DNA from: Psychromonas sp. L1A2
Lineage (GTDB): Bacteria; Pseudomonadota; Gammaproteobacteria; Enterobacterales; Psychromonadaceae
DNA length: 64,000 nt
Assembly: GCF_009828855.1 (NCBI RefSeq)
Contig: NZ_WUAG01000002.1
Span: forward strand, 1 to 64,000
Direction of reading: 5' to 3'
Shown: one piece after another, positions 9,897 to 42,846 of the stretch
How the letters are laid out: every line of letters begins with the position of its first letter
How positions within the stretch are numbered: the first letter of the stretch is position 1
Made by a program: the position numbers and the translations under genes
The notes under the pieces: model-generated
The model's input: only the letters and a program-made list of their open reading frames with translations
Database searches by the model: none
Told to the model about the DNA's origin: nothing

Positions 9897-9922
9897 AATG
9901 CATAACGGTGCTACAGAAACGA

Positions 9923-24853: not shown

Positions 24854-27800
24854 TTATTCTCCGCCCCATTGCTCATAAATTAAATCATTCAAATTACATA
24901 ATAATGGCATAAATACCTGTAGTGCTATCGACTCAAATTGTTGCCAATGATCTTCAATATTTTCAAAAACACGATTAATGTAAGGGTCATTTGCTTCCGC
25001 ATAACCACGGCTATTATTAAAGACTTTTAACGCCGCTTGTTGGCCAGCAGCGCGCGTATCAAAACTTAACTCATCTAGCACAAAGACATTTGCTTGTAAT
25101 TTACAAACCGCTTCACACCACTGGTAAGCACTTTCCACAAAGAAAGGTAACGCTTGCTGTAACCCCTGTTGATATAAAGCTAATAATTCAGCTAAACGCT
25201 GATGAGCATAATCAGCGGGAATTTCCTCAAAATAATGCCCTTTTGTTTGACCAAACAAGGTCGCGTTAAGGTGTTGACCATGCACGATGCAATAACTTAA
25301 ATGCTCCACCCATAAATTAAGCAGATCTTTTCCTTTAATATTGCCCGGTTTAATACGCACTAATCCATTTTCACAATGGTCATCAAGCGCGCCCACTAAA
25401 CGTTTTTGGTCAAACGGAATATCAACATTTATCTGTTCAATATCACCAATAAAGTAACCGCTGTAAACGCCTGCTAAATCGACCATGACTTGTAAGTCTT
25501 TATTAAAAATCAATGTCGCAAACTCACCCACGGGTAATTTACCTTGTGCTTGTAAACCCACGTATAAATCCGTTAAAGCTTGGTCATCGAGTCCATTTTC
25601 AAATTGTTGTTTTTTGAGCATGTATTGCTGCAAATTATCCAAAGCAAAGGGTTCATCATTTTCTTGGTCAATGTCATCAATCTCAAAATACACATTTAAA
25701 CCTTGATTAAAAAACGCCTTACAAGGATTTTGTAAAAATCGAATCAGCGACGTTAACTCTATCAACTCACTTTGTAATAAAGGCAAAGGTTGATTAATCT
25801 CAGCTTGATCCGCCGATAATTGAGTAGCGGCATTCCACCAAGATTGTTGATAGGTAATTTGCTTACCTTGAAAATACTGTTCACTAAAACTTTGCATTGG
25901 GTAATGATGTATTAACGAAGCCAATAACTGTTTTTCCAATTGGCCATTATCCAATGATTCGCTCTCAAGCAAACTTTCATGCTGGCTGGTTAATATAAAG
26001 CTCTGTTGAATATAGTTAAGCAGCTCGCTGACTAACACGCTCGGCATTTTTTCACTGTTATCACTGATATCTTTACCGATGTAACTAACGTAAAAATTTG
26101 ATTGTGCCGATAACAGCGCCTCTAAAAATAGATAACGATCTTCATCTCTGCGTGAACGGTCACCACGTTTTCTATGGCCGACCATCAAATCGAATCCCAT
26201 TGGTAACAACGAACGAGGATATAAACCATCATTCATGCCTAACAGGCAGACCACTTTAAAAGGAATCGAGCGCATTGGCATTAACGTACAAAAGTTCACC
26301 TGCCCTGCTAAGAAACGTTGGCTATTCGATTGGCTAGACAAATGCTCTTGTAAATATTCAACCAATACCATTAACGATAAAGGCTGATCGAACTTAGCCT
26401 GTGCAGTTTGCTCCGACAACATTTGCATTTGTTGTCGTATTTGGCTGAACAACACACTATTATCTTCATCTTCAAGGTAGAAATCGTCGATTAAGTGATT
26501 AATGAACAGTTGCCACTCAGCACAACTCACTTCTTTATTTAAATTCGCTTCTAAATCAATCAAGGTATCAATAAATTCAATAAACCGACCGAGTAAATCG
26601 CCTTGTAAACCTTGTACTTCATCGTAAGGGGCAATGCCTTCAAAAAGATTGTCACTCATGGCATAACCCAACAACATACGTTTTAAACCAAACAGCCAAT
26701 TATTTTGTGTTAACGCAGGGAGTTCCCACTGTGTCGCGGATTGATCATTAAGCCCCCATCGAATACCGCTTTCGGTGATCCAATGTTGTAATAAATCAAA
26801 TTCAGATTGCTTGATAGAGAATCGATTTAAAATCGCAGGTACTTCTAATAATGCTAAAATATCTTCTCGCGTATAACGGCTTTGTTGTAAATTCAACAAT
26901 TGTAAAAAGCTCGCTAAAATCGGATTTTCCTGTTGCGCACTGACATCAGAAATAGAGAATGGAATGGTAATGCCCGTGCCAGAACGGCTAAATACCGCTT
27001 CTACATAAGGCGCATAAGCATCGATATTAGGCACCATCACAATAATATCTTTAGGGGTCAGCTTAGGATCTTGCTCAAACATGGTTAATAAGTTGTCGTG
27101 TAATACTTCGACTTCTCGCATCACACTATGGCAAGCATGTAAGCTCAGCGAATTATCATGGTCATCAATTTCAATACGCAGTGAGGGATCTTTTAATGTC
27201 TGCGTTGAGCTATCGGTTAAATCTAAAATATCAGCCTGTAAATTATGTAATAAGCTGTCACGGTCAATATCAACAAAGGCATCAATTTCTTGTTGCTCAA
27301 GGCTATACAGTTGATATAAAAAATCACGTCCCATTTTACCCATTGAAGCCAATAATGGGTTACCCACTTCACTTTCAATATCGCCACTGCTCGCCCAGGC
27401 TAAATGCGCTTCATCTTTTTGCCAACTACTTGCTTTTAACTGTTCAACTTCGCCCGCTTTCACACTCACTTTAGGACGAGACTGAGCAAAACGTTTCGCT
27501 AGTAGTTTAGGGTCAACAATGTCTCCCCAATAATAACGACAAGGATTCGTTAATAGAAAATGCACATCACAATGTTCAGCTAACCCTAATAACGCTTGCA
27601 GGTAAGATTCAGGCAAAGAAGAGATACCAAAAACAAAAATACGTTTTGGCAAATGCGTTAACTGCTCGGTAGTTTTAGTCGCCAACGTACTTAAAAAGTC
27701 TTGGTACAAACCTGCACGATGATAAGCTTTACCTTGAGATTGGAACCCTTCTTTAATGCTGTTTACTAATAAACGCCATAACTTAGCCTGCCAAAGATGT

Positions 27801-28315
27801 GTGTCTAGCCACTCTGGTTGTAAATGATCTAAGCTGACTTGGCTGTCTTCCAATGTTTCCCAATTATCAATCCACTCTGGGCGATATACTAAATATTGGT
27901 CAAATATATCGGCGACTTTCCCACTTAACTGGAAACGTTTGCGCAGGTGTTGATCGTCTTCTAAATACTCTTTTAACGCACTAAAGTCTTCGTCTTCTAA
28001 ACAATCAGGCAATAACTTCATTATTTGCCACGTCATCGATTGTTTATTGAATGGACTGTTATCAGGCACATCGTCTAAAACATGTTTAAACTGCTGCCAA
28101 ATAAAACTCGCCGGTAACGGGAAATCAATATTCGCTGCGATACCAGTAGATTGTGCAATCTCCAATTGCAACCATTGCGCCATACCCGGGCTTTGCACTA
28201 ATACGGTTTCATTTTCAAAAGGATGGCTCAAGGGAGATTGTTTCATGAGCGCTAGCAGCAGGTCTTTAAGCAAGCTTATTTGATTGGAATGATAGACTTT
28301 AAACACACGCGCCAC
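24854..28315 (-). CDS. recC: Exonuclease V gamma subunit (RecC, Chi recognition)
   Basis: A nuclease-dead helicase-like subunit that scans for Chi and splits the duplex. The 1153 residues match E. coli RecC (1122). The N-terminus MARVFKVYHSNQISLLKDLL and the stretch VLVQSPGMAQWLQLEIA are characteristic. So are CLLGMNDGLYPRS and RRGDRSRRDEDRYLFLEALLSA-type motifs further on (conserved RDEDRYLFLEALLSA). It is the first gene of recC-recB-recD. Unlike E. coli, no ptrA lies between recC and recB. Confidence 0.96.
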   Translation of the reverse strand: MARVFKVYHSNQISLLKDLLLALMKQSPLSHPFENETVLVQSPGMAQWLQLEIAQSTGIAANIDFPLPASFIWQQFKHVLDDVPDNSPFNKQSMTWQIMKLLPDCLEDEDFSALKEYLEDDQHLRKRFQLSGKVADIFDQYLVYRPEWIDNWETLEDSQVSLDHLQPEWLDTHLWQAKLWRLLVNSIKEGFQSQGKAYHRAGLYQDFLSTLATKTTEQLTHLPKRIFVFGISSLPESYLQALLGLAEHCDVHFLLTNPCRYYWGDIVDPKLLAKRFAQSRPKVSVKAGEVEQLKASSWQKDEAHLAWASSGDIESEVGNPLLASMGKMGRDFLYQLYSLEQQEIDAFVDIDRDSLLHNLQADILDLTDSSTQTLKDPSLRIEIDDHDNSLSLHACHSVMREVEVLHDNLLTMFEQDPKLTPKDIIVMVPNIDAYAPYVEAVFSRSGTGITIPFSISDVSAQQENPILASFLQLLNLQQSRYTREDILALLEVPAILNRFSIKQSEFDLLQHWITESGIRWGLNDQSATQWELPALTQNNWLFGLKRMLLGYAMSDNLFEGIAPYDEVQGLQGDLLGRFIEFIDTLIDLEANLNKEVSCAEWQLFINHLIDDFYLEDEDNSVLFSQIRQQMQMLSEQTAQAKFDQPLSLMVLVEYLQEHLSSQSNSQRFLAGQVNFCTLMPMRSIPFKVVCLLGMNDGLYPRSLLPMGFDLMVGHRKRGDRSRRDEDRYLFLEALLSAQSNFYVSYIGKDISDNSEKMPSVLVSELLNYIQQSFILTSQHESLLESESLDNGQLEKQLLASLIHHYPMQSFSEQYFQGKQITYQQSWWNAATQLSADQAEINQPLPLLQSELIELTSLIRFLQNPCKAFFNQGLNVYFEIDDIDQENDEPFALDNLQQYMLKKQQFENGLDDQALTDLYVGLQAQGKLPVGEFATLIFNKDLQVMVDLAGVYSGYFIGDIEQINVDIPFDQKRLVGALDDHCENGLVRIKPGNIKGKDLLNLWVEHLSYCIVHGQHLNATLFGQTKGHYFEEIPADYAHQRLAELLALYQQGLQQALPFFVESAYQWCEAVCKLQANVFVLDELSFDTRAAGQQAALKVFNNSRGYAEANDPYINRVFENIEDHWQQFESIALQVFMPLLCNLNDLIYEQWGGE

Positions 28316-28776
28316 CTTTTGAGAAAGTTGTTTTTTAGCTGTTTATTATAGTAGCTCTAAAATACCATAACTATCATAAGAGTAATCAACAGAGTGATGA
28401 AAAAAGTAAATTTAATCATTGGGTTGGGAAGTTAAAAATAACTAGCTGCTTTACCCCTGCTTTCTGTAACAATAAATAAAGCCGACTCCTTTTAAAAATT
28501 GAATATTGTTTTATAAGCCAATAAAAAATAGCGCACGAAATAAGTCAAAAAATAGAACATAAATACAAATCATAATGTTCAGTATTTCCGATGTTAATAC
28601 GGATCTTTACTATCGTTCCACATGATAACTTTTTTAGTTTTTATGTTAATCGTTTGATTAGTCTGTTAAATTTAACCTTCAATATCAAATTCAAATAATT
28701 AATAGCATTCTACATAGCCACTGGAAATACGAAATAATTTTGGTTAGTTATGCTATTACAAGTCAATGGAGCTTCA
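28316..28776. other. Intergenic region at the left border of the accessory segment
   Basis: About 460 AT-rich bases between the divergent recC and the small gene at 28777. No open frame, tRNA, integrase or obvious direct repeat is visible. Promoters for both neighbours must lie here but none is clear enough to call. Confidence 0.5.
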
Positions 28777-29067
28777 ATGAAATTACGTACTTTTGTAAAA
28801 GAAACACTAAAAGATGTTCTTGGCGGTATCCATGATGCTCAAACTGAAATTGAACACGGAGAAGTTGTTCCTTTAATAAATGAAACCGATTGGAAAGGCT
28901 TAGAAACAGGATTAACTAGTTTCCAAGCAATTGAATTCGAAGTATCTGTTAATGCTGTCGAAAAAGAAGGTAGTGAAGCTAAATTAAATGTTGTAGCAGC
29001 CGTTATTGGAGGACATGTAAAAGGTGATAGCTCAAATGTGGCAGAGCATACTGCAAAGTACCTGTGA
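28777..29067 (+). CDS. Small protein of unknown function, C-terminus possibly frameshifted
   Basis: 96 residues from the ATG at 28777 (MKLRTFVKETL), which has GGAG 6 bases upstream. An in-frame ATG at 28750 lacks a binding site. An N-terminal amphipathic helix (VKETLKDVLGGIHDAQTEI) is followed by a predicted beta region (QAIEFEVSVNA, KLNVVAAVIGGHVKG). This layout resembles a common family of small accessory-region proteins that end in a strand of the type R(I/V)KF(K/S)VPV. Here the frame ends AEHTAKYL, while another frame immediately continues KVPVKLPLSSK to a stop at 29088-29090. A single-base shift near 29050 may therefore have cut off the last strand. I cannot assign a function. Confidence 0.6.
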   Translation: MKLRTFVKETLKDVLGGIHDAQTEIEHGEVVPLINETDWKGLETGLTSFQAIEFEVSVNAVEKEGSEAKLNVVAAVIGGHVKGDSSNVAEHTAKYL

Positions 29068-29268
29068 AATTACCATTATCAAGTAAATAAACTTATTAAA
29101 TCTAATATAGAATATTGTTCTATTTTGTTCTTAAAATAAAAAATTACGCAAAAAAGCTTCTAACATGTTCTGTAGTTTACGAGGGCGTTAAGCTCCTAGA
29201 ATAACTAGTTTTTCTTAACATAAAGAAATCCTACAGCTTTGTTAAATACCAAGGAGATACCCAGATAA

Positions 29269-29802
29269 ATGTCTATTTCATTAAATAATTTTAAACTTGC
29301 AATATCAGATGCAAAAGAGCTAGCTGAGTGTTACGACTTATTGAATACTAAAGATAATATATCGCCACCTGAAGCATTAAAACGTGCAGCATTAATAATG
29401 ACGATGACCGCTTGGGAAACCTATGTAGAAGATATTGCAACTGAGCTATTTACTAATAAATTTGGTGTCCTACAAGGTTGTCATATCGGTAATTATCTTG
29501 ATCGTCAATTCACATTAAAATTGAAAACATTTCACAATCCAGGCTCACAGAAGACCAAAGAGATCTTTGAAGAGTTTTTTGGAGTTAATGTTACTGAAAG
29601 CTGGGTTTGGAATAGCTACCAAACACCAAAACAAGTTAAGCAAACTCTTGATGCTTGGTTAAGGCGTAGAGGCGAGGCAGTTCATCGTTCTCAAGTCGAT
29701 ATTACTAAACCTGATTTGATTAAAAGAAATGAATTAGACAAATGTGTAAGATTTATATCAGATCTGGTCGAAAGAACAGATAAAGCTTTAGAGTCGGTGT
29801 AG
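29269..29802 (+). CDS. HEPN-domain protein (RiboL-PSP-type)
   Basis: 177 residues, all-helical in character, with no signal peptide. ALKRAALIMTMTAWETYVEDIATEL (split here at about 36-60) is the first conserved helix of RiboL-PSP-HEPN-like proteins. WLRRRGEAVHR at 130-140 contains the Rx4H motif (Arg134, His139) found in catalytically active HEPN ribonucleases. Such proteins occur as toxin or abortive-infection effectors and as ribosome-linked stress RNases. AAGGAG lies 12 bases upstream of the ATG. The stop codon lies inside a GGTGTA microrepeat. The neighbours are an unknown small protein and a broken lipoprotein gene, with no obvious antitoxin next to it. The family call is moderate; RNase activity is inferred. 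Confidence 0.7.
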   Translation: MSISLNNFKLAISDAKELAECYDLLNTKDNISPPEALKRAALIMTMTAWETYVEDIATELFTNKFGVLQGCHIGNYLDRQFTLKLKTFHNPGSQKTKEIFEEFFGVNVTESWVWNSYQTPKQVKQTLDAWLRRRGEAVHRSQVDITKPDLIKRNELDKCVRFISDLVERTDKALESV

Positions 29803-29833
29803 GTGTAGGTGTAGGTGTTTCAAAGAAATTATC

Positions 29834-30199
29834 ATGCAATTTAAATTTTTAGCAATCATATTATTAAGTTTAATGAGTAGCTGTCAATTTACTCCCCAAA
29901 AGGTCGAGTCAGAAAAAGATTTATTAATTGGAGAGGATTCTTCAAATGTAAAAGTCCTAATTCGACAAATAGATAAAGGCGAAATATTATGAACTAAGAA
30001 TTATCAATTAGGTACTACAGCGTCTATCGAAATAGGCACTCATACAGTTTCAATAATATCTGAATTCTCACACTCATGGGGTAAAGTATTGTCTCCTGGT
30101 AACCTGGATATTAATATAAAACCAAATGCCACTTATAAAATTTCAGGCATTCTTTCAAAGAGTGATGATACATGTTTAGTTTCAACTAACATCAAATAA
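29834..30199 (+). pseudogene. Lipoprotein gene interrupted by an in-frame TGA
   Basis: The ATG at 29834 begins a lipoprotein signal peptide (MQFKFLAIILLSLMSSC, lipobox ending at Cys17). The frame meets TGA at 29990-29992 after 52 codons, then stays open in the same frame to TAA at 30197-30199, 121 codons in all. The second half (NYQLGTTASIEIGTHTVSII, then NLDINIKPNATYKISGIL) has beta-sandwich character like small stress-type lipoproteins. It is clearly the continuation of the same protein. This is best read as a nonsense mutation in a once-intact gene. A sequencing error or stop read-through are alternatives. Function unknown. Confidence 0.65.
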
Positions 30200-30600
30200 G
30201 ATGATCAAGAATTAACATTTACATATTAGATTTTCTGTCTCTGTTCAACATTTTAACTAAAAAAATGGTGCTAGATGTACCTATAAAAGTAAAAAATATT
30301 TAACACCATTCTTGCGCATATAAAAATCACTGGACATATATGGTCACTCTTTGTAAATCAAGATTAGATTGATTTTTATTTGCTGCTTAATAATCGATTA
30401 TGTACAGAAGACTCGTCCCACTTATTAATAAAGGGGTGTTTTCCTGGTTAAACTTGTCTTTTGTACAGGATCGTTTTAGTCGATAAATCACCTTTGTCTA
30501 AACTGCTCTTTACATCATAGAGATAACGGTTTCTTGACATATATCCGGCGTCTTAATGGCTACTTTATGGGAAGCCGCGCCCTCCTGAATTCCAGAAGAA

Positions 30601-30667
30601 GTCTTACTCGCCTTTGCACCCATTATGCCTTAAAAGGCAGAAGTCCAGCTGAGGTTCCGAGTAAGAC
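30601..30667 (-). ncRNA. Candidate IS110-type bridge RNA hairpin in the non-coding end of the IS
   Basis: Within the non-coding end downstream of the transposase, GTCTTACTCG (30601-30610) pairs perfectly with CGAGTAAGAC (30658-30667). The enclosed 47 bases hold a second hairpin, TGCCTT/AAGGCA. IS110-family elements encode a structured bridge RNA in a non-coding end, and for IS1111-like members this is the end after the gene. Position and nested stems fit; the guide loops were not mapped. Confidence 0.4.
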
Positions 30668-30757
30668 AAACCGCTTTAAATCATCAATGCTTATTACCGT
30701 TTAGGGTGGTGGATTAATTAAATCGTTTTTCATATTCTATCTGTTCATTGTGCTTTA

Positions 30758-31780
30758 TCATGCACAAGCTTTAGTCACATCAAAGGGCTGTTTAGTCGTT
30801 AATACCGACCAAATTATTCTGGCTAGCTTATTCGCCAAAGCAACCACTGCTTTACACCCATGCATTTGCTCTTTTAGAGTTTTCAGCCAACAACTCAATA
30901 CATCGTCTTTTTTCTCACACCAGTTCAGTACCGTGCGCGCACCATGAATTAGATACTTTCTAAGCGAACTATTGCCCCGCTTACTTATTTTACCCATTCG
31001 ATTTGTTTCACCACTAGCATATTGTGTCGGTGTTAGGCCAATCCAAGCGGCTAGCTGCCTGCCATTTTTAAAGGCCCCCGCATCACCGACTGATGCCATT
31101 AAAGCGGCTGAAATAATGGCCCGATACCTGGTATGCTTTGTAACAATGCATATTCATCTTTGTCTTTAATTAGGTCGACAACTCTGTTTTACTGCTTCAA
31201 TTTGAACACTTATTCGTTGTATATTACGATAAATACGTAGGATAAAACTGCGTGCTATCGACGTTAATTCATTATTCGCATCTTCAACGATATCAGGTAC
31301 TGCGTTCATCAAAGTCGTGATACCCGTTCCAACCACTACACCGTATTCAGATAATAAACCTCTTAACTGATTCACGTCACCCGTTCTTGTTTTTACCAAT
31401 CGTTCAGCAATCCGTTGTAGTGATTGAATGTCTTGTTGCTCTGTCGATTTAACCGCAACAAAACGAACTGTTGGTCTTAATGAGGCTTCAGCAATAGCGA
31501 GAGCATCATTGGCATCATTTTTATTGCCAATCACAAAAGGTTTAACGACAAAAGGCGGAATTAATCTGACAGTATGCCCTAGCTTTTCAATTCTTCTTCC
31601 CCATGGATTTGAGCTATAACAAGCTTCCATCACGACTAACGTAGGTTCAAACTGCCTTAGTTCGTGTAACAGTTCAGAGCGTTTTACTTTTTTGTTAAAC
31701 AGCACTTTTCTATTTTCATCTAATACACATATTTGAAAAATATTCTTTGCTAGGTCGATACTAATTACGCTACATTTCAT
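30758..31780 (-). pseudogene. IS110-family transposase, frameshifted
   Basis: The frame starts at the ATG at 31780 (MKCSVISIDLAKNIFQ), with the DEDD nuclease N-terminus: Asp in SIDLAK, Glu in VVMEAC, and NDANDALAIAEA. It breaks after EAVKQ near 31180, continues in another frame as VVDLIKDKDEYALLQSIPGIGP, and shifts again near 31115 into MASVGDAGAFKNGRQLAAWIGL. The last stretch is the C-terminal transposase_20 region with its conserved Ser-rich helix. At least two frameshifts separate the halves, so an intact transposase is not made. Upstream in-frame codons to 31873 belong to the IS end rather than to the protein. Confidence 0.88.
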
Positions 31781-31862
31781 TTTGGTCACTCCATGGTTAG
31801 ATTGATTTGCTGAACACTTATCCAATCTTGGCACATTGTGATGCCTTCGTGGAGTGACCATC

Positions 31863-32204
31863 TCAGCATCCACTTATTGAAGTAAGCAATATCAAATAGT
31901 TACAATAAAACCTTGCCCAATGTGGCTGCAACTCCCACACCGTTGAACTTTCCCAAATCATTCATTGATTTTAGCAAATGCCAAACAGGATGTTTGGCTT
32001 AGGCTCGTTCTGGCCATGGATGCCCAGCAAGAGCCGGTGCGTTATAAAAGCAATGAAGGATTTGGATCAGAAAGTGATTCGGTGGTCAGTTTCTTTGAGT
32101 TCTTTGTAGGTATAGGTCTTTTCTGATAAAAGAAAGTTTGGTCGCCGCTAGGGCGAAAAAACTGACAATAAACATCAAGCAGACTGGACGAGCACAGACG
32201 AGCT
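31863..32204 (+). repeat. Structured dispersed repeat, copy A (right part, interrupted by the IS)
   Basis: The longest copy of a non-coding repeat seen again at about 32215, 33300, 35669 and 38390, all in the same orientation. An outer stem pairs 31953-31967 with 32051-32065 (14 pairs, one mismatch). Inside are hairpin GCCAAACA/TGTTTGGC (31980-31998) and hairpin GGCTC...GAGCC (32002-32035). A downstream stem GTCAGTTT/AAACTGAC joins 32095-32102 and 32159-32166. No convincing protein is encoded on either strand. The probable left end of this copy lies before the IS, around 30325-30339. Confidence 0.8.
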
Positions 32205-32214
32205 AAAAAAAAGT

Positions 32215-32306
32215 GCCTGCAACTCCCCCACCGCTGAACTTTTCCAAATAATTCATTACTTTTAGAAAATGCCAAACAGGATGTTTGGCTTAGGCTCGTT
32301 CTGGCC
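32215..32306 (+). repeat. Structured dispersed repeat, copy A' (internally deleted)
   Basis: Directly follows copy A and repeats its first half (from CAACTCCCCCACCG to the GCCAAACA/TGTTTGGC hairpin and GGCTCGTTCTGGCC), then breaks off. The sequence after the break resembles the very end of copy A (AAAAAGTGC), so the middle was probably deleted. Near 32391 an isolated match to the IS end (ATGGTCACTC) also remains. Confidence 0.75.
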
Positions 32307-32622
32307 AGAAAAAGTGCAAGGCTCCCATTAATTTTGATAGCTAGAAAACACAACTTTATCATACATATTGGTCTACTTTATTAAGGTTGAAATGGTCACT
32401 CTACGAAGGGATATAATTAAGTTATCAAAAACAATAAAATATATTTCAACTAGTATTATTTATATCGCAATGCACATATTACTTAAATTCAAGAATTCAA
32501 GAGCGGTAATAAGTGGAGATAAGTCTTTAATCAACTCTGTTACCACCTTATTTTTACTCTTATTAAATTCAATTTTTATATAAGTTTATTTATATTGAAA
32601 ACATACCCTGCTGGAGTATACT

Positions 32623-32994
32623 TTGATCTATAAAACCAAGGTTTTTGCTTCTTTAACAAAAAAAGAAGCTTTATCTGATAACGATCTTATTAATGCCTGT
32701 AAAGAAATGAGCCAAGGGCTTTTTGATGCAGACTTAGGTGGTAGTGTTTATAAAAAACGTATTGCTGCTGGAAATAAAGGGAAAAGTGCCGGCTATCGAA
32801 CCATTATCGGGGCTGTTATCAACGATAAATATTTTTTCTTATACGTCTTTGCCAAGAGTGATAAAGCGAATATTAATTCTAAAGAGAAATTAGCACTAAA
32901 AGAGTTAGCTAAAGAATTTTTGGGATTTGATAAGAATGCACTAAACAAACTTGTAAATGATGGCGAACTTATTAAGGTAGAAAACGATGAGTGA
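32623..32994 (+). CDS. RelE-type toxin of a toxin-antitoxin pair
   Basis: 123 residues. GNKGKSAGYRTIIGAVIN and FLYVFAKSDKANINSKE match the RelE-like family of toxins (PF06296 type, HigB/RelE superfamily), which inhibit translation by mRNA cleavage. The frame starts at TTG (32623), with GGAG 8 bases upstream. No ATG lies near enough to replace it. The stop overlaps the start of the following Xre-type gene by 8 bases, the toxin-first order seen in higBA-like modules. It sits between copies of the structured repeat in the accessory region. Toxin family is well supported; activity is inferred. Confidence 0.82.
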   Translation: MIYKTKVFASLTKKEALSDNDLINACKEMSQGLFDADLGGSVYKKRIAAGNKGKSAGYRTIIGAVINDKYFFLYVFAKSDKANINSKEKLALKELAKEFLGFDKNALNKLVNDGELIKVENDE

Positions 32995-33289
32995 TATTTT
33001 AAAAGCAGTACATAAAACAGCTAAAGGCTTACAGAAATCTGGTTCGATAGATAAAACCACTATGCGCAAGTTTGATGCACTTTGTTTAACTAGTGTGCAT
33101 GAGTTTACACCAGATCAGGTTCGAGCACTCAGACTTAAAAATAAACTTTCTCAACCCGTATTTGCTCGTTATTTTAATGTGAGTGACAAGTTAGTAAAGA
33201 AATGGGAACAAGGAGACAGTAAACCAAGAGGTGCGGCCTTAAAAATGCTATCACTCGCTGAAAAAAAAGGCCTTGATATTATAGCTTGA
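32987..33289 (+). CDS. Xre/HigA-type antitoxin
   Basis: 100 residues with a C-terminal helix-turn-helix: FTPDQVRALRLKNKLSQPVF, then VSDKLVKKWEQGDSKPRGAA. This is the arrangement of COG2944-type antitoxins and regulators. It overlaps the RelE-type toxin gene by 8 bases, so the two are translationally coupled. It is expected to bind the toxin and repress the pair's promoter. The N-terminal 40 residues (KAVHKTAKGLQKSGSIDKTT) likely form the toxin-binding part. Confidence 0.85.
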   Translation: MSDILKAVHKTAKGLQKSGSIDKTTMRKFDALCLTSVHEFTPDQVRALRLKNKLSQPVFARYFNVSDKLVKKWEQGDSKPRGAALKMLSLAEKKGLDIIA

Positions 33290-33299
33290 TCAGAATAAA

Positions 33300-33615
33300 A
33301 GTACTGGACAGTAACTAACTTAAGCAATGAATATCAATTAGATACAATAAGACCTTGCCCAATGTGGCTACAACACTCTCACTCTTCAACTTTCCCAAAT
33401 ACCCCATTGCTTTTAACAAAGCCAAATAGGATATTTGGCTTAGGCTAGTTAGTAAAGCAATGGATTATTTGGATCAGAAAGTGATTCGGTAGTCAGTTTC
33501 TTTGAGTTATTTGTAGGTATAGCTTCTCTGCTGGCAAAGAGAAAGTAAAGTCACCGACAGGGCGAAAACACAGTCAATAAATATCGAAATGACTGGATGA
33601 GCGCAGACGAAAAAC
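33300..33615 (+). repeat. Structured dispersed repeat, copy B
   Basis: Aligns with copy A over its whole length (from GTACTGGACAGTAACT to GACTGGATGAGCGCAGACGA). The outer stem is kept as CCAAATA (33395-33401)/TATTTGG (33466-33472) and CCATTGC/GCAATGG. The inner hairpin is kept as GCCAAATA/TATTTGGC (33421-33439). Compared with copy A, both stems carry paired changes (C-G to A-T, and C-G to T-A). Hairpin 2 is deleted here. Confidence 0.8.
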
Positions 33616-33762
33616 TTATCCTCCAATCATGAAAGGAATCAAGAAACCAATACGGCTATGCCTATTTTTTCTTTTTAAGATTTTCAGTAAATTAAAATCA
33701 ATCACAGTAAATGACACCTCCTCCTAAAAATACAAAACCTGAACTCGATAACGCCTTATTTC

Positions 33763-33776
33763 ATGATGTGGATCAT
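33763..33776 (+). promoter_or_regulatory. Candidate FNR/CRP-type operator upstream of the DASS transporter
   Basis: ATGATGTGGATCAT contains the FNR core TGAT-N4-ATCA as a perfect dyad, about 80 bases upstream of the transporter start. FNR control would suit an anaerobic dicarboxylate or citrate/tartrate exchanger. A CRP-type reading is less good. Confidence 0.45.
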
Positions 33777-33855
33777 TCCCTGTGAAAGTAAGCAAGTTAC
33801 TATCATATTAAACTTTCTTACTGACGGGTAAGAGGTAAAAAGTTTAGGATATTAT

Positions 33856-35322
33856 ATGAAAGTCACTGATGTTCGTATTTTTCCAGGGTTAATCTCCATA
33901 GCGGTTATTTTATTACTTTGGTTTTTTATACCCGTACCCGATGGTGTTTCCGATAATGCATGGCACTTACTGGCTTTGTTTGTGGGGACAGTAGTCGCAA
34001 TTATTGGTAAGGCAATGCCCATTGGTGCCGTAGGTATTCTGGCCATCACATCAGTGGCACTTACTGGCGTCACCAGTGATAACCCTTCCATCGCAATTAA
34101 AGATGCATTGAGTGGTTTCTCAAACTCGCTTATTTGGTTAATTGGTATTGCCATTATTATTTCCAGGGGATTGGTTAAATCAGGTTTAGGCAATCGTATT
34201 GGTTATTATTTTATTTCTGTATTTGGTAAAAAAACCATCGGTATTGGTTATGCATTAGCGCTTTCTGAATTAGTGATTGCGCCAGTAACACCCAGTAATA
34301 CTGCTCGTGGTGGTGGCATTATCCATACAATTATGAAATCAATTGCGACCAGCTTTAATTCTTCACCTGAGCAAGGAACATCTCGTAAAATTGGCCATTA
34401 TCTTGCTCTGGTTAACTATCATATTAACCCCATTACTTCCGCTATGTTTATTACAGCAACCGCGCCAAACCCGTTAATTGTAAAACTGATTTCAGACGCG
34501 ACAGGTTCAAGCATTAATATTACTTGGGGAACTTGGGCATTGGCTGCGCTTTTACCTGGTTTAGTCTGTATTGCCTTAGTGCCTTTGGTCGTTTATCTCA
34601 TTTACCCACCAGAAATTAAAAGCACACCTGATGCAAAAAGGTATTCTCAAGCCAAACTTAAAGACATGGGTAAGATGTCCTATAACGAAAAAATCATGAT
34701 TGGCGTTTTTACTTTACTACTCACTTTGTGGGCTGGTGTACCAGCGATGTTGTTTGGTCCAGATTATGCAGTCAATACAACGGCCGTTGCTTTCTTAGGG
34801 TTGTCTATTTTATTGATAAGCGGTGTGTTGAGTTGGGACGATGTACTGAAAGAAAAGTCAGCTTGGGATACCGTTATTTGGTTCTCGGCATTAGTGATGA
34901 TGGCAACCTACTTAAATAAACTCGGTTTGGTGGAATGGTTCTCACACATAATGGGCAGCAATATTGATCGACTTGGCTTTGGTTGGATTACTTCTATTGT
35001 TATTTTAGTTGCTGTGTATTTTTACGCACATTATTTTTTTGCTAGTACGACCGCACATATTACTGCCATGTTTGCTGCTTTTTATGGCGCAGGTTTAGCA
35101 TTAGGCGCACCACCTTTATATCTTGGTTTATTACTCGCGGGAGCATCTTCGTTGATGATGTCGTTAACACATTATGCAACAGGCACCTCCCCCATCATTT
35201 TTGGTTCAAGTTATGTTTCCATGAAGGATTGGTGGTTAATGGGCTTTATAATGAGCATCGTTAACTTATCTGTCTGGGGTATTGTGGGTGGACTTTGGTG
35301 GAAAGTGTTAGGATACTGGTAA
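33856..35322 (+). CDS. DASS/CitT-family dicarboxylate or tricarboxylate transporter
   Basis: An inner-membrane carrier of the SLC13/DASS family (CitT, TtdT, plastid 2-oxoglutarate/malate type), moving citrate, tartrate, succinate or malate. It has 488 residues with about 12 membrane segments. Both substrate and cation motifs are visible: APVTPSNTARGGG (SNT) in the first half and YATGTSPIIFGSSYV in the second. The stretches LIWLIGIAIIISRGLVKSGLG and NYHINPITSAMFITATAPNP are characteristic. The gene stands alone between copies of the structured repeat, so horizontal acquisition is possible. A candidate FNR box lies upstream. The exact substrate cannot be read from the sequence. Confidence 0.9.
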   Translation: MKVTDVRIFPGLISIAVILLLWFFIPVPDGVSDNAWHLLALFVGTVVAIIGKAMPIGAVGILAITSVALTGVTSDNPSIAIKDALSGFSNSLIWLIGIAIIISRGLVKSGLGNRIGYYFISVFGKKTIGIGYALALSELVIAPVTPSNTARGGGIIHTIMKSIATSFNSSPEQGTSRKIGHYLALVNYHINPITSAMFITATAPNPLIVKLISDATGSSINITWGTWALAALLPGLVCIALVPLVVYLIYPPEIKSTPDAKRYSQAKLKDMGKMSYNEKIMIGVFTLLLTLWAGVPAMLFGPDYAVNTTAVAFLGLSILLISGVLSWDDVLKEKSAWDTVIWFSALVMMATYLNKLGLVEWFSHIMGSNIDRLGFGWITSIVILVAVYFYAHYFFASTTAHITAMFAAFYGAGLALGAPPLYLGLLLAGASSLMMSLTHYATGTSPIIFGSSYVSMKDWWLMGFIMSIVNLSVWGIVGGLWWKVLGYW

Positions 35323-36084
35323 AAGTACTGCGAAGATCTTGCGGACAAGTATTGCCTTTTTATTTTAAGTTAACCATAAGACCTTAGCAAATTTGACTAC
35401 GTCTATTCACCCCATGAAAAAATCAACTGGCTCAGATGTTTCATATTGATGAAATATCTCGACGACTTTTATCAATAAACGTCTATAGATGAATTTTAAC
35501 TTATCTTGCTCATGGTTGACCTAAAAAATAGTATTTTTTAAAAAATGAAATACCTAACAACTTTTATTAAGCACTAAATAATTAGTTTGAAGCTTAATGA
35601 GCTTATCAATAATGAATGACTAACTTTCTAGGAAAGAAGTAAATGAAATTTTCGACTTTAATAAAAAAGGCATTGGATAGTCACTAATTTAAGTAATAAA
35701 TATCAATAAGTTACAATAAAACCTTACTCAATATGGCTACAACTCCCCCACCGTTGAACTTTCCTAACCAATTAAAACCTTTCAGTAACAACAAACAGCC
35801 ACAACTGTCTCTCATTAACTTTGATAACCAAAATATCCCTTTCTCATACTGCAGTTTGACATCATCGAAAGATTTAACAAAAATTAATAATGCAAATTTA
35901 AAGCGTTATATTTCTGTAGTGCTATAGTCTTACTGCATTGATTTGAATCGTATTTTTAAAAATATCCATTAACTTAACAAAACATTAACGTTTTTGGACT
36001 TCATATCCTCAGCACGCTATTAAATATTTTTAAACTTTTCCTTTTAAAAAATATTAATAATCTACATCTGACAAGTAGAAAGTA
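35323..36084. other. Intergenic region with a truncated copy (C) of the structured repeat
   Basis: The stretch 35669-35766 (GGCATTGGATAG to CGTTGAACTTTCC) aligns with the first about 100 bases of copies A and B and then stops before the stem region. The remainder is AT-rich. A 64-codon frame over the repeat is a by-product of the repeat and not a credible gene. Confidence 0.7.
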
Positions 36085-38238
36085 ATGAATAAAATAATAA
36101 TATTAATGACAATAATATTTAATACATCGGCGTTTGCAGCAGAAGAAACTAACCTTTTTACTGCTTCAGAAAAAGCCTATATTGCATCACATGTATTTAC
36201 GTTAGGCACTATCTCCGATAATTACCCGTTTAACTTTGAAGATAAAGGGAAATTATCTGGTTTTTCATATGATTATATAAATTTAATAAAGAAAAAAAGC
36301 GGATTAAAGATAAAAATTGAGGTGGCAAGCTGGACTGAGACGCTTGGCAAATTTAAAGCTAAAAAAATTGATTTGATTGATCTTATCTCTTACAAAAAAA
36401 GCAGAGAAATATTTACAAATTTTACAAAGCCTTACTTTGAAATACCAAGCGTTGTTTTTGGTAGAAAAGGTGAGTTCAATAATTACCTCGGATTTGAATC
36501 TTTAAAAGGTAAAAAAGTTGGTATCACTAAAGATCTTTATTATTACGATGAGATTAAATCTTTGAATCTTTTTGATATTGTCATCTTTGAAAATTCAAAA
36601 GAAAAATTGAAAGCATTAGCCTATGGACAAGTAGATGCAGTATTTAATAACCTCATTACAGGTCAAAGGCTTATTAAAAATTTTGGGTTTTCTAACATAA
36701 AAATCCTTGCTGAACTTGATAGCCATCTAGTAAAAAAAGAAGACCTAAGATTGGGCGTGAAAAAAGAAGATAATATGTTATTTTCAATAATAACAAAATC
36801 CATAAATTCAATTTCAAGAGAAGAATATGAGTCGTTAATTGATAAATGGTTTGCAGCTAAAGAAACAGTAACATTAACTGATACAGGTTTGGTATTAACC
36901 GAAGAAGAAACAAATTTTCTTAAAAATAAACAAGTAATTACTATATGTGTCTCTCCAGATTGGCTTCCTTTTGAACGAATCGATAAAGAAGGAAGCTATA
37001 AAGGTGTTGGTGCAGATATTACTAAAATAATATCAGAAAAAATTAATACACCTTTTATTTTAGTACCAACTAAAAAATGGTCTGAGTCACTACAAAATAT
37101 AAGAAATCGAAAGTGTGATATTTTACCTGTTGCTATGGATGTTCCCTCTAGAAAAAATTCAATGAATTTTACAATTCCTTTTATATCGGAGCCTTTTGTT
37201 ATAGCCACAAAATCCGAAGAGTTATTTATTAAAGACATTGCGAGTATAGGAAGTCGTAAGATTGGCATTGTAGAGAGTTATGCATTCTCTGAAGTATTAA
37301 AAAATAATAATCCGCTACTTAATATTATTGATGTTAAAAGTGCTAAAGAAGGTTTATCTAAAGTTCAGAGTGGTGAGCTTTTTGGGTACATCGATATTAT
37401 GCCAGCTGTCGGATATAACATCCAAAAATATTCTTTTGTTGATTTAAAAATAGCGGGAAGATTAGAACACAATGTTGATTTGAGTATTGCATCACGAAAT
37501 GATGAACACCTTTTAAATTCAATAATGCAAAAATCATTAAATAGCATAGGTGAAAATAAGCTTAGAGCCATAGTAGGAGAATGGATTAAAATAAAAGTAG
37601 AGCAATCTATTAACTATGAAAAACTTTTTTATATCTCAGCGGCTTTTACTGTTGTATTTTTACTCCTCTTACATAGAAGTCGATCAATAAAACAAACAAA
37701 TGCGCAATTAGCATTATTAAATAAAGAAATAAAAGAAAAAAATATAGCACTTGAACAGTTAGCAAGAACTGACAAATTAACAGCACTTTATAATCGCGTT
37801 AAATTGGATGAAGCATTAATTTCAGAAAGTGATCGGGCTAATCGATTTTCTCATGGTTTTGGAGTTATTCTAATTGATATTGACTATTTTAAGAAAGTGA
37901 ATGATGAATTCGGTCATCAAACTGGCGACACTGTACTACAAGAATTTAGTCGTATTATTGAATCACACTCAAGAAAGACAGATGTTGTTGGCCGTTGGGG
38001 GGGAGAAGAGTTTCTCATTATTTCGCCAGAAATAAACTTAACTGATTTATTATCCTTGGCCAATAAACTACGTAAAGAAATTTGTAGTTATAAATTTGTA
38101 AATAATGAATATAAAACAGCTTCTTTTGGAGTCTCTATTTATGAAAAAAATGAAAATATCAATAAATTAATAAAAAGAGTGGATGAAGCATTATACAAAG
38201 CAAAGAAAAATGGTAGAAACAGAGTTGAAATTGGTTAA
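36085..38238 (+). CDS. Sensor diguanylate cyclase with two periplasmic solute-binding domains
   Basis: 717 residues. A signal peptide (about 1-19, ending SAFAA) is followed by two tandem SBP_bac_3 (PBPb) domains: about 35-265 (YPFNFEDKGKLSGFSYDYINL) and about 285-510 (DWLPFERIDKEGSYKGVGADI). One membrane helix lies at about 515-535, then a short coiled coil (LLNKEIKEKNIALEQLART), then a GGDEF domain. The active-site loop is GGEEF at 639-643, a functional variant. RKTD five residues before it is a complete RxxD inhibitory I-site. It should make c-di-GMP in the cytoplasm in response to a periplasmic ligand such as an amino acid. Low GC and repeat-rich flanks suggest an accessory origin. A link to the LapA-type adhesin is possible but only inferred. 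Confidence 0.93.
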   Translation: MNKIIILMTIIFNTSAFAAEETNLFTASEKAYIASHVFTLGTISDNYPFNFEDKGKLSGFSYDYINLIKKKSGLKIKIEVASWTETLGKFKAKKIDLIDLISYKKSREIFTNFTKPYFEIPSVVFGRKGEFNNYLGFESLKGKKVGITKDLYYYDEIKSLNLFDIVIFENSKEKLKALAYGQVDAVFNNLITGQRLIKNFGFSNIKILAELDSHLVKKEDLRLGVKKEDNMLFSIITKSINSISREEYESLIDKWFAAKETVTLTDTGLVLTEEETNFLKNKQVITICVSPDWLPFERIDKEGSYKGVGADITKIISEKINTPFILVPTKKWSESLQNIRNRKCDILPVAMDVPSRKNSMNFTIPFISEPFVIATKSEELFIKDIASIGSRKIGIVESYAFSEVLKNNNPLLNIIDVKSAKEGLSKVQSGELFGYIDIMPAVGYNIQKYSFVDLKIAGRLEHNVDLSIASRNDEHLLNSIMQKSLNSIGENKLRAIVGEWIKIKVEQSINYEKLFYISAAFTVVFLLLLHRSRSIKQTNAQLALLNKEIKEKNIALEQLARTDKLTALYNRVKLDEALISESDRANRFSHGFGVILIDIDYFKKVNDEFGHQTGDTVLQEFSRIIESHSRKTDVVGRWGGEEFLIISPEINLTDLLSLANKLRKEICSYKFVNNEYKTASFGVSIYEKNENINKLIKRVDEALYKAKKNGRNRVEIG

Positions 38239-38632
38239 AGTGGCGTGTTCAATCAAGCTATTTGGATATAATTGATAAAGATTTATATCGATATAAACCT
38301 TTATCATAGGCCCTATTATTAGAGCTATAGCTACTATTTTTATTTTTCTTTAAGATTAAAAATAAGGTCACGTTTTGCCTTTAATTTAACAATAAAATCT
38401 TACTCAATATAACTGTAACTCCACTAGGGCTAAAGCTAAACTTTCCCAAGCCATTCACTACTTTTAGCAAATCCAAATAAGGTGTTTAATTTAAGCATCA
38501 TTCCTACTGTTTCAGCCGATATAAATCTGTGTATGGCGTGCTATTTTTTCAATAAACCGATAGTCAAAATTCAATTAAGGCGTAAACTTAAATATGTTTC
38601 ACACATTTGTGATTTTATTTTTAGGTTATTTT
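38239..38632. other. Intergenic region with a diverged copy (D) of the structured repeat
   Basis: 38388-38506 aligns with the first half of copies A and B (CAATAAAATCTTACTCAATA, AACTTTCCCAAGCCATTCAC, TTTTAGCAAATCCAAATAAG). The inner hairpin is degraded. The rest holds the cbpA upstream region without a clear promoter. Confidence 0.65.
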
Positions 38633-39586
38633 ATGGAATTCAAAAATTATTATAAAATACTCGGTGTCAGCAAAAATGCTGATGTTAAAGATATTAAAAC
38701 AGCTTATCGAAAACTTGCCCGACAATATCACCCTGACTTACATCCAGAAGAAGGTGGAGGTGACAAATTTAAAGAAATCACTGAAGCTTATGAAGTATTA
38801 AAGGATGCAGGCAGAAGAGAAAAATTTGATGAGCTGCTTGAATATGGAGATCAATCAAGTCAAGGATTTCAGCCTCCACCTGGATGGCAACAAAACCATC
38901 AGACTTCTAAAGGAGATCCTGCTGCTGATCAGGACTTCTCAGACTTTTTCAATTCCATCTTTAATGGTGGATTTGATCAATCCCAATTTAATGGTAGAGC
39001 TCAACCACATCACGCTAGAGGCCAAGATGTTGAAACAGAATTGGCTATTTCATTACAAGAAACACTACATCAACAAATTAAAATGGTTCACTATCAATTG
39101 CCTGTTTCCGAAGGTGGAAAAGTACGCCAGATTAAAAAACAATTAAATATAAAAATACCGCAAGGTGTTATTAATGGTGAGCGTATTCGTCTTAAAGGCC
39201 AAGGAAAGCCGGGTTATGGCGGAGGTGAACCGGGTGACCTTTATCTACATATTCATGTAAACAATCATCCCCTTTTTGATGTTAAAAAACATGATTTAAT
39301 ATTAACCTTGCCACTTGCACCTTGGGAGGCGGCATTGGGAACTAAGGTTACCGTACCGACACTCGATGGCAAAGTAACGTTGACGATAGCCGCGAATACT
39401 CAATCAGGTAAAAAATTGCGTGTTAAAGGTAAAGGCTTAAAAAGAAAAGATAAGTTGGGCGATCTCTATGTCATCATTAATGTGATTATACCGCCTGTCA
39501 GCAATGATAAAGCAAACCAGTTATGGCAAGAGCTTGCAAAAAATTCAGCTTTTGACCCTAGGGTTTCATGGGGAGAATATTTATGA
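38633..39586 (+). CDS. cbpA: DnaJ-like co-chaperone CbpA
   Basis: 317 residues from the ATG at 38633 (MEFKNYYKILGVSKNADVKD). The in-frame ATG at 38594 would add a hydrophobic 13-residue tail foreign to the family. The J-domain has the HPD motif at 33-35, a short G/F-like linker follows, and two beta C-terminal substrate domains hold IPQGVINGERIRLKGQGKPG and DLYVIINVIIPP. There is no zinc-finger, as expected for CbpA rather than DnaJ. It works with DnaK and binds curved DNA in E. coli. The stop overlaps the start of cbpM by ATGA. Confidence 0.95.
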   Translation: MEFKNYYKILGVSKNADVKDIKTAYRKLARQYHPDLHPEEGGGDKFKEITEAYEVLKDAGRREKFDELLEYGDQSSQGFQPPPGWQQNHQTSKGDPAADQDFSDFFNSIFNGGFDQSQFNGRAQPHHARGQDVETELAISLQETLHQQIKMVHYQLPVSEGGKVRQIKKQLNIKIPQGVINGERIRLKGQGKPGYGGGEPGDLYLHIHVNNHPLFDVKKHDLILTLPLAPWEAALGTKVTVPTLDGKVTLTIAANTQSGKKLRVKGKGLKRKDKLGDLYVIINVIIPPVSNDKANQLWQELAKNSAFDPRVSWGEYL

Positions 39587-39915
39587 TGCGCAGATTAACG
39601 GTCATTTCACTCAGTGAATTATGTCAATTAGAAAGAATTGAAAATCATCATATTATTGAAATCGTTGAGAACGGCATTGTTAACCCCATTGTTAATACAA
39701 ACAGTGCGGATGCTACCGATAACAACAAAAAATCTGATTGGGAGTTTGAAACGGCCAGTGTTTATTGGATAAAAAAAGCAGTACGGCTACACCAAGATTT
39801 AGAAATTGACTGGCTTGCGGTGGCCTTGCTTATCGATTTAATTCAACAAAGAGATGCATTACAAAAAGAAAATGCATTTTTTAAACAACAGTTGAGCCGT
39901 TTTACTGAGTATTAA
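39583..39915 (+). CDS. cbpM: CbpM, modulator of CbpA
   Basis: About 110 residues from the ATG at 39583, which overlaps the cbpA stop and has GGGGAG 7-8 bases upstream. An in-frame ATG at 39568 inside cbpA is less likely. The MerR-like helical start (LTVISLSELCQLERIENHHI), the segment YWIKKAVRLHQDLEIDWLAV and the C-terminal heptad helix are typical of CbpM. CbpM binds the CbpA J-domain and blocks its activity. A terminator follows directly. Confidence 0.92.
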   Translation: MMRRLTVISLSELCQLERIENHHIIEIVENGIVNPIVNTNSADATDNNKKSDWEFETASVYWIKKAVRLHQDLEIDWLAVALLIDLIQQRDALQKENAFFKQQLSRFTEY

Positions 39916-39931
39916 TAATACGAGAATAATA

Positions 39932-39960
39932 AACGAGGAGCTTTTAGCTCCTCGTTCCTT
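39932..39960 (+). terminator. Terminator after cbpA-cbpM
   Basis: An 11-bp perfect stem AACGAGGAGCT/AGCTCCTCGTT (39932-39956) with a 3-base loop, followed by CCTTCTTAT. The T run is poor but the stem is strong and well placed, 17 bases after the cbpM stop. Confidence 0.75.
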
Positions 39961-40339
39961 CTTATATTATTAATCAGCTTTCTTAATAATGAGTTTCTTA
40001 ATCATCATCTTTCTTAATAACCAGCTTTCTTAATAATCAGTTGTTTCAGCAGATGAAATATCAGAAAATAAGTAAGCTAACAGTAACAGTCGCAGCTCTC
40101 CTCCTCTTATGACACTAAACTTGCCTAACTCGCTATACGCATTAACGTCAAAAAAGCATCGGAATAAAAAGTAGCTACATAAAAAGCACCGATATAAATA
40201 AGCATCGATATAAAAACAATAGAAGAGAAGACTATAAAACACTGTTCAACGCGGCTCACCTTTCACCATTGAGCTTTACTAAACGATGGAAGGAGTGAAC
40301 CATTAACAGGTATGAAAAGTATTATAGAATATAGTATTC
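39961..40339. repeat. Intergenic region with imperfect short repeats
   Basis: Between the converging cbpM and glgC. Around 39962-40040 the unit CTTTCTTAATAATCAG recurs about four times with variation. Around 40146-40215 short GCATCGATATAAA-like units recur. A 70-codon minus-strand frame over the second set is low complexity (Phe, Tyr, Cys rich) and I do not accept it as a gene. Confidence 0.55.
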
Positions 40340-41602
40340 CTATTTTTTTAGTGCCTCAATCATGGCGCTAGTGACCAAGGTAATACCTTTTTCAGACACT
40401 CGAAATCCTCTCGCAACGTCTTTTTCTCTATCGAAACCAATCGTTAATTCGGCAGGAATGTGACAATTAGCATCTACAATAACTTTAAATAATTTACAGT
40501 TTTTACCGATATCACACTCAGGCATTAATACTGATTGTTCAATGACACTATGAGAATGAGTATGTACGCTCGAATATAATATCGACTTACGAATAGTGGA
40601 ACCTGAAACAATACACCCACTAGCAACCGTTGAGTCCAATGCAGTCCCTCTGCGAGTGGCATTATCAAATATAAACTTAGCGGGCGGTAGCTGACTTTGG
40701 TAAGTAAAGATTGGCCATGATTGATCGTAAAGATCAAATTGAGGCTTGGGCTCTATTAATTCCATATTAGCCTCCCACAATGCATCAATAGTTCCTACAT
40801 CACGCCAATAAGGTGGTTTACTTGCATCTGGATCTTCGATCGGATAAGCAAAGATATCATGCTGTTTAATAATTGAAGGAATAATATCTAAGCCAAAGTC
40901 ATGCTTTGAAGTAGGATTGAGTGCATCTTTATTTAACTGTTCAAATAGAAACTCTGTATTAAAAACATAATTCCCCATCGATGCCAAACATACACCTGGT
41001 TTACAGGGTGTTTCTTTAGGGTTGGCTGGTTTTTCATTAAATGCGATCACTTTATTTTTTTCATCTACCGACATCACACCAAAACTTCCCGCGGCCTCTT
41101 CGACACTTGCCTCAATACAACATACTGTCATATCCGCTTTATTCTCAACATGTTGTATCAGCAACTTACCATAATCCATACGGTAAACATGGTCACCCGA
41201 TAAAATTAATATGTATTTTGGTTTATGGCTGCGAATAATATCTATATTTTGATAAACCGCATCAGCGGTACCTGTATACCAATCGTTTAATTTATGGGGG
41301 GATGCAGGAAGTACTTCCACAAATTCTGACAAATCAGCTTTAAAAGTCCCCCACCCGCGGTGAATATGACTAATTAAAGAATGTGATTTATATTGTGTTG
41401 CGACGCCAACACGACCGATACCTGAGTTTAAACAATTAGAAAGAGGAAAGTCGATAATACGAAATGTGCCGCCAAAGTAGACCGCTGGTTTAGCGCGGCG
41501 GTCAGTCAACTCAAATAAACGACTCCCACGACCTCCGGCTAAAATGATTGCATAGGTGTCTTTACTTAAACTACTGATATATCGATCATCGTTATTTAAC
41601 AT
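40340..41602 (-). CDS. glgC: Glucose-1-phosphate adenylyltransferase (ADP-glucose pyrophosphorylase)
   Basis: Makes ADP-glucose, the committed step of glycogen synthesis. I choose the ATG at 41602 ([10 protein letters not shown]), which has GGAGGA 6 bases upstream. The in-frame ATG at 41647 adds an unconserved leader. This gives 420 residues (E. coli 431). The nucleotide loop [22 protein letters not shown], the catalytic region [13 protein letters not shown], the sugar-binding FNEKP and the C-terminal left-handed beta-helix ([13 protein letters not shown]) are intact. No other glg gene is in the window, so this may be a dispersed or second copy. Confidence 0.95.
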
Positions 41603-41999
41603 ATGTCCTCCAGCTAATTTAAAGATTTTCATTGATATTTTTATCACATCAAGCCTATATCATTTGGCGCTTAATTATTTAAACAAGCAAGCTTAATTTA
41701 TGAACAATAGAAGGTCTATTGACTTGCATCAATGAAGAGAATAAAGGCTAATTGAAGAGCGTTTTTATGGAGATTTTTATCAAGGAAGTGATTAAGAAAA
41801 AGAAGAGTCAGCAATGGCTTACATCACAATAAATAATTCAAGTGCAAGCGACCTAAACAACTCAAAGTCTAATACATGTGGCTTATATAATTTGGCTACC
41901 GTTGTTACACACAGAACGACTTATTCCAATAACGCATCACATTGACTACGTAATGCCTCTTAACCAATGTTTATAAATAAGAGGTATTGAAAAATTTGA
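41603..41999. other. Intergenic region upstream of glgC
   Basis: About 400 bases between the glgC start and the MITE. It must contain the glgC promoter. I see no open frame, RNA gene or strong inverted repeat. Confidence 0.5.
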
Positions 42000-42783: not shown

Positions 42784-42846
42784 AAAATAGTGAATAAGTT
42801 TTTATAACAAGCTTAACTTATCCGACTATTGAGAGTCATTTAAGAC

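Follow-up and report, generated by a model that had tools for sequence, protein, structure and literature searches.

Repeat copies around a likely toxin-antitoxin pair

The window, a 64-kb stretch of the Psychromonas sp. L1A2 genome, contains a RelE-family toxin gene and an HTH_3 partner gene, likely the antitoxin, amid plus-strand copies of a ~340-nt non-coding unit (Table 1). One copy is full (copy A), one is internally deleted (copy B), and four are partial. Copy A abuts an IS110-family transposase gene that is split over two frames, and inspection by eye shows its initial few bases to be replaced at the IS110 junction. Copy B begins 12 nt past the stop codon of the HTH_3 gene. We located the copies with nhmmer and a profile of HMM length 339, built from 30 copies of the same genome, copy A itself included. 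A sequence-only reading of this DNA had reported five copies, all on the plus strand; with this profile all five are recovered in that orientation, and the observation as a whole is confirmed. A relaxed search of 25000-45000 gave no minus-strand copies, save one 1.2-bit match.

The stems named in that reading are present when checked letter by letter, and its paired exchanges are correct: C31959/G32059 in copy A corresponds to A33401/T33466 in copy B, and C31986/G31992 to T33427/A33433. Its statement that copies A and B fold alike holds for these stems and exchanges, but not for hairpin 2, which copy B lacks. The window would represent a decayed plus-strand stack around the RelE/HTH toxin-antitoxin pair.

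Table 1. Repeat copies, structural elements and neighboring genes in the window
Feature	Position	Strand	Evidence
IS110-family transposase, split over two frames, abutting copy A	30758-31873	-	PF01548 E 2.6e-19, PF02371 E 3e-18
Copy A, full ~340-nt unit (arm)	31862-32202	+	nhmmer, HMM 6-338 of 339, E 8.3e-80
TwoAYGGAY RNA core (RF01731) in copy A	31930-32092	+	cmscan 52.8 bits, model 1-168 of 168
Outer stem of copy A, CCAAATCATTCATTG opposite CAATGAAGGATTTGG	31953-31967 with 32051-32065	+	letters checked; also paired in Rfam alignment
Hairpin 1 of copy A, GCCAAACAGGATGTTTGGC, GGA in loop	31980-31998	+	letters checked
Hairpin 2 of copy A, loop CATGGATG	32002-32035	+	Rfam alignment; positions counted by eye
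3' GC hairpin of copy A, TCGCCGCTAGGGCGA, beyond the Rfam model	32142-32156	+	position by eye; stem predicted on 90 units
Outer tip of copy A, GACGAGCACAGACGAG, with covarying C-G / T-A position pair	32187-32202	+	95-tip comparison
Partial unit directly behind the tip of copy A	32211-32307	+	HMM 68-163, E 1.1e-16
RelE-family toxin gene (PF06296), cargo-like	32623-32994	+	E 3.3e-40
HTH_3 partner gene, likely antitoxin	32987-33289	+	PF01381 23.1 bits, cut-off 23
Copy B, unit with hairpin 2 deleted	33301-33611	+	nhmmer, HMM 3-338, E 1.8e-48; hairpin 2 columns empty
5' fragment of unit	35670-35798	+	HMM 3-135, E 2.4e-17
Unit fragment	38375-38484	+	HMM 36-139, E 1.2e-5
Unit fragment, absent from the sequence-only reading	40232-40290	+	HMM 51-112, E 3.7e-6

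Two side observations concern the window. Inverted copies resembling IS110 ends (GATGCCTTCGTGGAGTGACC at 31842-31862 and GGTCACTCTACGAAGGGATA at 32392-32412, by eye) bracket copy A together with the partial copy behind it, and the split IS110 gene lies just outside; this IS110 element may target the repeat. Elsewhere, at 3807-4324, the minus strand carries a tandem run of five tRNA genes with identical Rfam scores of 71.2 bits.

A known RNA family with variable copy number

Copy A matches the Rfam family TwoAYGGAY (RF01731) end to end, with 52.8 bits against a gathering score of 43, and hence the repeat is not a new RNA. The suggestion of a possible new RNA, for which an Rfam match had been named as counterevidence, is thereby ruled out. 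The rest of that description, a dispersed, structured, non-coding RNA with compensatory changes, is borne out in 90 distinct units. The expectation that no protein lies behind the repeat also stands, as at most three of these units are without stops in any given frame, which rules out a hidden protein. The idea of a non-autonomous element also pointed the right way, as the repeat behaves like an end of such an element.

Weinberg and co-workers listed TwoAYGGAY in 2010, judging it a probable RNA that is unlikely to be cis-regulatory (PMC2864571). A 2014 paper still treats it as a family of unknown function and proposes that its loops bind CsrA (PMC4333381), and the Rfam 15 paper reports covarying pairs added to the family (PMC11701678).

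At the gathering score, copy A is the sole RF01731 match in the whole window; copy B lacks hairpin 2 and the others are fragments. Within 30700-38700, copy A stays alone even at E 5, where copy B too gives no match. The L1A2 genome (4.34 Mb, two contigs) contains 34 RF01731 matches, 25 of them above cut-off, copy A included. At E 1e-4, matches were found in 22 of 41 genomes, our own included (20/24 in the genus, 2/17 in other families of the order), and copy number within Psychromonas ranges from 0 to 39. A class-wide draw gave matches in at least 19 of 369 genomes, again with our own included, a floor because only seven candidates per genome were scored. No copy was found in the plasmid and phage collections by blastn with one unit as query. 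The ORFs of L118, a locus in another family, include FSCLSKK..EKKDTP-type peptides, and similar hypothetical proteins presumably occur in Xanthomonas and Lysobacter; given these, the element may reach beyond the range found with the Rfam model.

Selection acts on the outward strand as RNA

In an alignment of 30 copies, the ~340-nt unit starts with a 5' part, followed by the TwoAYGGAY core, additional 3' hairpins and, last, a tip, GAYGAGCGCAGACGAR. Like RF01731, the unit has two stem-loops with GGA, with 25 genomic copies above the curated score. It differs in being about twice the length of the model, in adding the 3' hairpins and a covarying tip, and in a first loop that is mostly CAGGAY rather than AYGGAY. 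Among 95 tips, the Y and R positions covary (C-G 47, T-A 35, C-A 9, T-G 3, G-A 1). A pattern combining the tip with the end of the 3' hairpin occurs in 75 stretches of the genome collection, all 75 from Psychromonas.

Within the core, the stems vary, yet each loop retains its GGA in 88 of 90 units; loop 2 reads AYGGAY in 70 units and loop 1 CAGGAY in 76. Covariation extends to this larger alignment, in which many pairs occur in two or three Watson-Crick forms. With kinship among the 90 units ignored, the predicted pairs comprise 2572 Watson-Crick, 89 G-U, 28 A-C, 158 other and 33 gapped. Two sets of arms from other families, again with kinship ignored, gave G-U to A-C counts of 54:9 (20 arms) and 85:4 (15 arms; a sixteenth, L127R, aligned poorly and was left out). 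Selection on a DNA duplex should tolerate G-T and A-C equally, so the excess of G-U over A-C identifies the outward strand as the one selected, as RNA. Promoter-like sites were no commoner than in shuffles.

The loops suggest a partner for this RNA. The CsrA SELEX consensus is RUACARGGAUGU, with the GGA in a hairpin loop (PMC4347634). Loops of the units read, for example, ACAGGAUGU or ACAUGGAUGU, and the ACAGGAUGU type fits this consensus; by loop counts over the 90 units, ACA and GGA are both present, with the GGA in a hairpin loop. The CsrA family is found in all 12 carrier genomes tested. Judging from these motifs, CsrA is the most natural partner of the arms and probably binds them. CsrA-sequestering sRNAs of the CsrB/RsmZ type share the ACA-GGA core of the CsrA consensus in their loops; in contrast to them, the arms have two candidate sites per RNA, occur in many dispersed copies and border accessory genes.

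Arms face outward around inserts

We then considered how neighboring arms are oriented. In six Psychromonas genomes, neighbors within 12 kb comprise 29 outward (-,+), 1 inward (+,-), 34 ++ and 33 -- cases; this count uses 184 of 186 hits (150 of 152 from five relatives, chosen for many copies or for completeness) and ignores kinship and orthologous loci. The lone inward case links two adjacent outward pairs. For six genomes from four other gammaproteobacterial families, the corresponding numbers are 25 outward, 3 inward, 1 ++ and 2 --, likewise with kinship and orthologous loci ignored, all outward pairs being in four of these genomes (G126, G197, G307 and G401). All 23 pairs closer than 300 nt in these families are outward, back to back and too close for a gene. 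Eighteen of the 23 were fetched and read by eye, and each consists of one arm of each of two subtypes (10/10 in G126; 8/8 in G307, G401 and G197). A rule that pairs always join two subtypes fails in Psychromonas, where by our tally about half of the pairs have both arms of one subtype.

Accessory genes, many of them uncharacterized, usually fill the space between arms in Psychromonas, and cargo-free pairs also occur (G014). Same-strand arms stack on each side of the inserts with their 3' tips outward. In our own genome, the order -...-+...+ holds in 12 of 12 stretches, of which two contain a single orientation; the relatives' loci were mostly fetched for holding an outward pair, and stretch patterns are unbiased for our own genome only. 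Stacks of one orientation are seen in L093, L094, L095 and the window. L094 and L095 are tandem arrays, of five plus units and of four minus units with a minus fragment, at ~360 nt spacing and with no opposite-strand partner within the stretch. These arrays suggest local amplification, and the -...-+...+ stacks could likewise stem from tandem duplication. Judged by eye, the outward pair L075 has apparent apt and dnaX genes between its arms.

Cargo differs between genomes at the same site

What one chromosomal site holds depends on the Psychromonas genome: cargo of different kinds, one arm only, or nothing. We compared the nrdD-nrdG site in 15 genomes, naming genes by eye unless a family search is given. 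In our own genome, two arms enclose an AAA protein of 887 aa whose PHP match is sub-threshold. G009 and G014 have one arm each, G003 and G012 have a spacer of 220-302 nt with apparent degenerate inverted tips (by eye), and seven genomes have no arm there (G001, G002, G005, G006, G008, G011, G015). Of the remaining three, G010 carries other genes, in G007 an insert between arms lies further upstream, and nrdD is not seen in the G013 stretch. Downstream of ubiG, our genome carries a Septu-like pair (best PADLOC matches PDC-M01A then PtuA, and PDC-M01B); in G012 its place is taken by a type I-B retron pair, in G009 and G003 by other genes. No arm is found at this site in G001, G005, G006, G008 or G011, and the rest have arms, fragments or a stretch of insufficient length for a call.

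To assess the cargo, we scanned proteins with PADLOC. At E 1e-5, 17 of 50 cargo proteins matched, compared to 6 of 20 flanking controls; at E 1e-20, the numbers were 15 of 50 and 3 of 20, a modest difference. The 50 were hand-picked, mostly from the innermost spaces, among 101 ORFs of at least 100 aa between the outermost arms in fetched loci. The 20 controls were also hand-picked; one of them (L078:4965-5897) is located within the outermost stack, though not within the innermost pair. Cargo matches include AbiH, Shedu SduA, Ppl-like, the Septu-like pair, HEPN, two PDC-S31, NsnA and PDC-S49, as well as OLD/AriA-like, LmuB-like, SIR2, HerA, a retron RT with its ATPase-TOPRIM, and Hp3. Control matches are mostly housekeeping-like (helicase, methyltransferase, chaperone), plus one AbiD. 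The last 10 cargo proteins scanned gave no PADLOC match. With Pfam at E 0.01, 13 of 20 cargo-region proteins remained without a match; one of the 20 is the product of a RAYT-like gene that lies beyond the arms.

Genome-wide, 7 of 24 long frames (≥370 aa) with AAA_21 lie within 3 kb of a copy, compared to 2.6% of the sequence; for short frames the figure is 1 of 18. One caveat here is that these counts use 42 of 82 hits (E ≤1e-6) and that the family was picked after its sighting among the cargo, with some near cases known beforehand, so that the p-value of this comparison is a rough guide only. By coordinates, one of three TIR_2 proteins is near a copy. Cargo is likely biased to defence genes.

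Possible origins of the arms

Judging from sequence, we consider it fairly probable that each TwoAYGGAY copy is an arm, the end module of a non-autonomous insert, and that it binds CsrA. Each arm would be transcribed outward, and the two GGA hairpins of the RNA would hold a CsrA/RsmA dimer. Arm pairs would spread via a recombinase or transposase acting in trans, and after insertion homologous recombination between arms would swap the cargo. Such exchange would explain how cargo turns over at fixed sites without a dedicated enzyme. The best-supported steps are the outward-read RNA of each arm and the variation at one site, where a block of arms and cargo can be present, missing or of another kind.

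Searches for signs of the mover gave the following. Target duplications showed no excess over shuffled pairs in sets of 6, 7 and 40 pairs, and no candidate mover gene common to all carriers was found. ORF lists read by eye show no transposase between the arms in L117 and L118, two larger spaces in other families, which speaks against a common autonomous element. In our own genome, three apparent IS91-type elements with an adjacent tyrosine integrase (L035:5169-7102 and 8435-10368, L042:4973-6906; by eye) lie near TwoAYGGAY units.

Alternatively, the units could be a family of small RNAs that sequester CsrA, in many cases produced as divergent pairs from a single intergenic spot, with no role in mobility; accessory genes would have gathered later between the RNAs because the spot tolerates insertion. 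The GGA hairpins, the presence of CsrA in every carrier tested, the earlier proposal of CsrA binding (PMC4333381) and the cargo-free divergent pairs of other families would all fit. However, copies are both scattered and stacked, with two near-identical pairs ~1 kb apart in L088 (by eye), copy number swings from 0 to 39 within one genus, and several arm sites are arm-free in relatives. We regard this explanation as unlikely.

A second possibility is that the arms form a giant REPIN-like system with a RAYT (Y1) transposase as its mover. A RAYT-like gene in our own genome (L033:7756-8775; PF01797 21 bits, below the cut-off of 23) adjoins units and has relatives in 15 of 25 genomes searched. It is flanked by GGACACCCA, as found at unit inner ends, and some inner ends carry GGACANCC sequences resembling those beside the gene. 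The GGGGTCAGGTCTT at some inner ends is, we assume, RAYT-associated. Type-A inner ends (GGACACCCA-like) occur in 26 of 132 units and type-B in 12, but 94 have neither. The inverted doublets recall those of REPINs (PMC3116915), whereas arms of ~340 nt are far longer than the REPs described. A Y1_Tnp (PF01797) match is present in seven of eight carriers tested; the exception, G401, has 10 TwoAYGGAY matches and four outward pairs, with no Y1_Tnp match at E 0.01. G010, also with 10 TwoAYGGAY matches, has none to the L033 RAYT, though three other Y1_Tnp matches occur there. RAYT as a necessary mover is ruled out for G401 and doubtful for G010, and we judge this origin to be quite improbable overall.

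Least probable of all is that the arms are insulators or terminators shielding chromosomal neighbors from foreign genes. In favor of this, every arm has strong 3' hairpins, and 31 units lie behind a codirectional gene, 13 of them overlapping it or at most 40 nt from its stop codon. Against it, the gene on that side is opposed in 36 units, terminator-like sites in two stretches are close to shuffled means (3 versus 1.6, 3 versus 1.3) with none on the outward strand at an arm 3' end as read from coordinates, and the near-invariant GGA loops and cargo-free pairs are left unexplained.

Relation to known systems

Viewed as ends of non-autonomous inserts, the arms resemble several known systems in part. 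As in REPIN/RAYT systems, a palindromic extragenic repeat forms inverted doublets and is present many times per genome, and the close pairs, outward in 23/23, have the form of such doublets. REPIN doublets are thus a precedent for part of the picture (PMC3116915). The differences are the ~340-nt RNA-like arms, the possibility of cargo between them, and a carrier genome with no Y1_Tnp match. With MITEs and composite transposons the arms share two inverted ends, the lack of a common transposase of their own, and sometimes cargo; here, in contrast, no target duplication was found, and the ends share structure more than sequence. In integron cassette arrays, too, exchangeable accessory genes at fixed sites are separated by structured sequences, whereas here the cargo has a structure on either side, the two in opposite orientation. 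A further partial precedent is sRNA-Xcc1, a family of sRNAs found on integron cassettes (PMC12444791).

The RNA family itself is already known. In the titles, abstracts and passages searched, we found no description of its border role around stacked gene inserts, of the outward-flanking arrangement or of a matching system. A bolder extension, which we put forward tentatively and hold to be possible rather than probable, is that TwoAYGGAY may mark undescribed RNA-bounded mobile cassettes in Gammaproteobacteria. Their ends would be two divergent CsrA-binding RNAs, they would insert only inside older cassettes, and in Psychromonas they would serve as a platform for the delivery and exchange of anti-phage genes. 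If so, unknown genes between arms would be candidate defence systems.

Implications

In this marine bacterium and related genomes, outward-facing borders of inserts provide a first genomic context for the orphan RNA TwoAYGGAY, and the swappable inserts between these borders include some apparent anti-phage genes. Given a consistent genomic role, TwoAYGGAY becomes testable, in terms of CsrA binding, outward transcription and cargo exchange. Island finders that rely on integrases or transposases may miss genes bordered in this way. The arms would give a sequence handle on such accessory, possibly defence, genes where no integrase or transposase is present.
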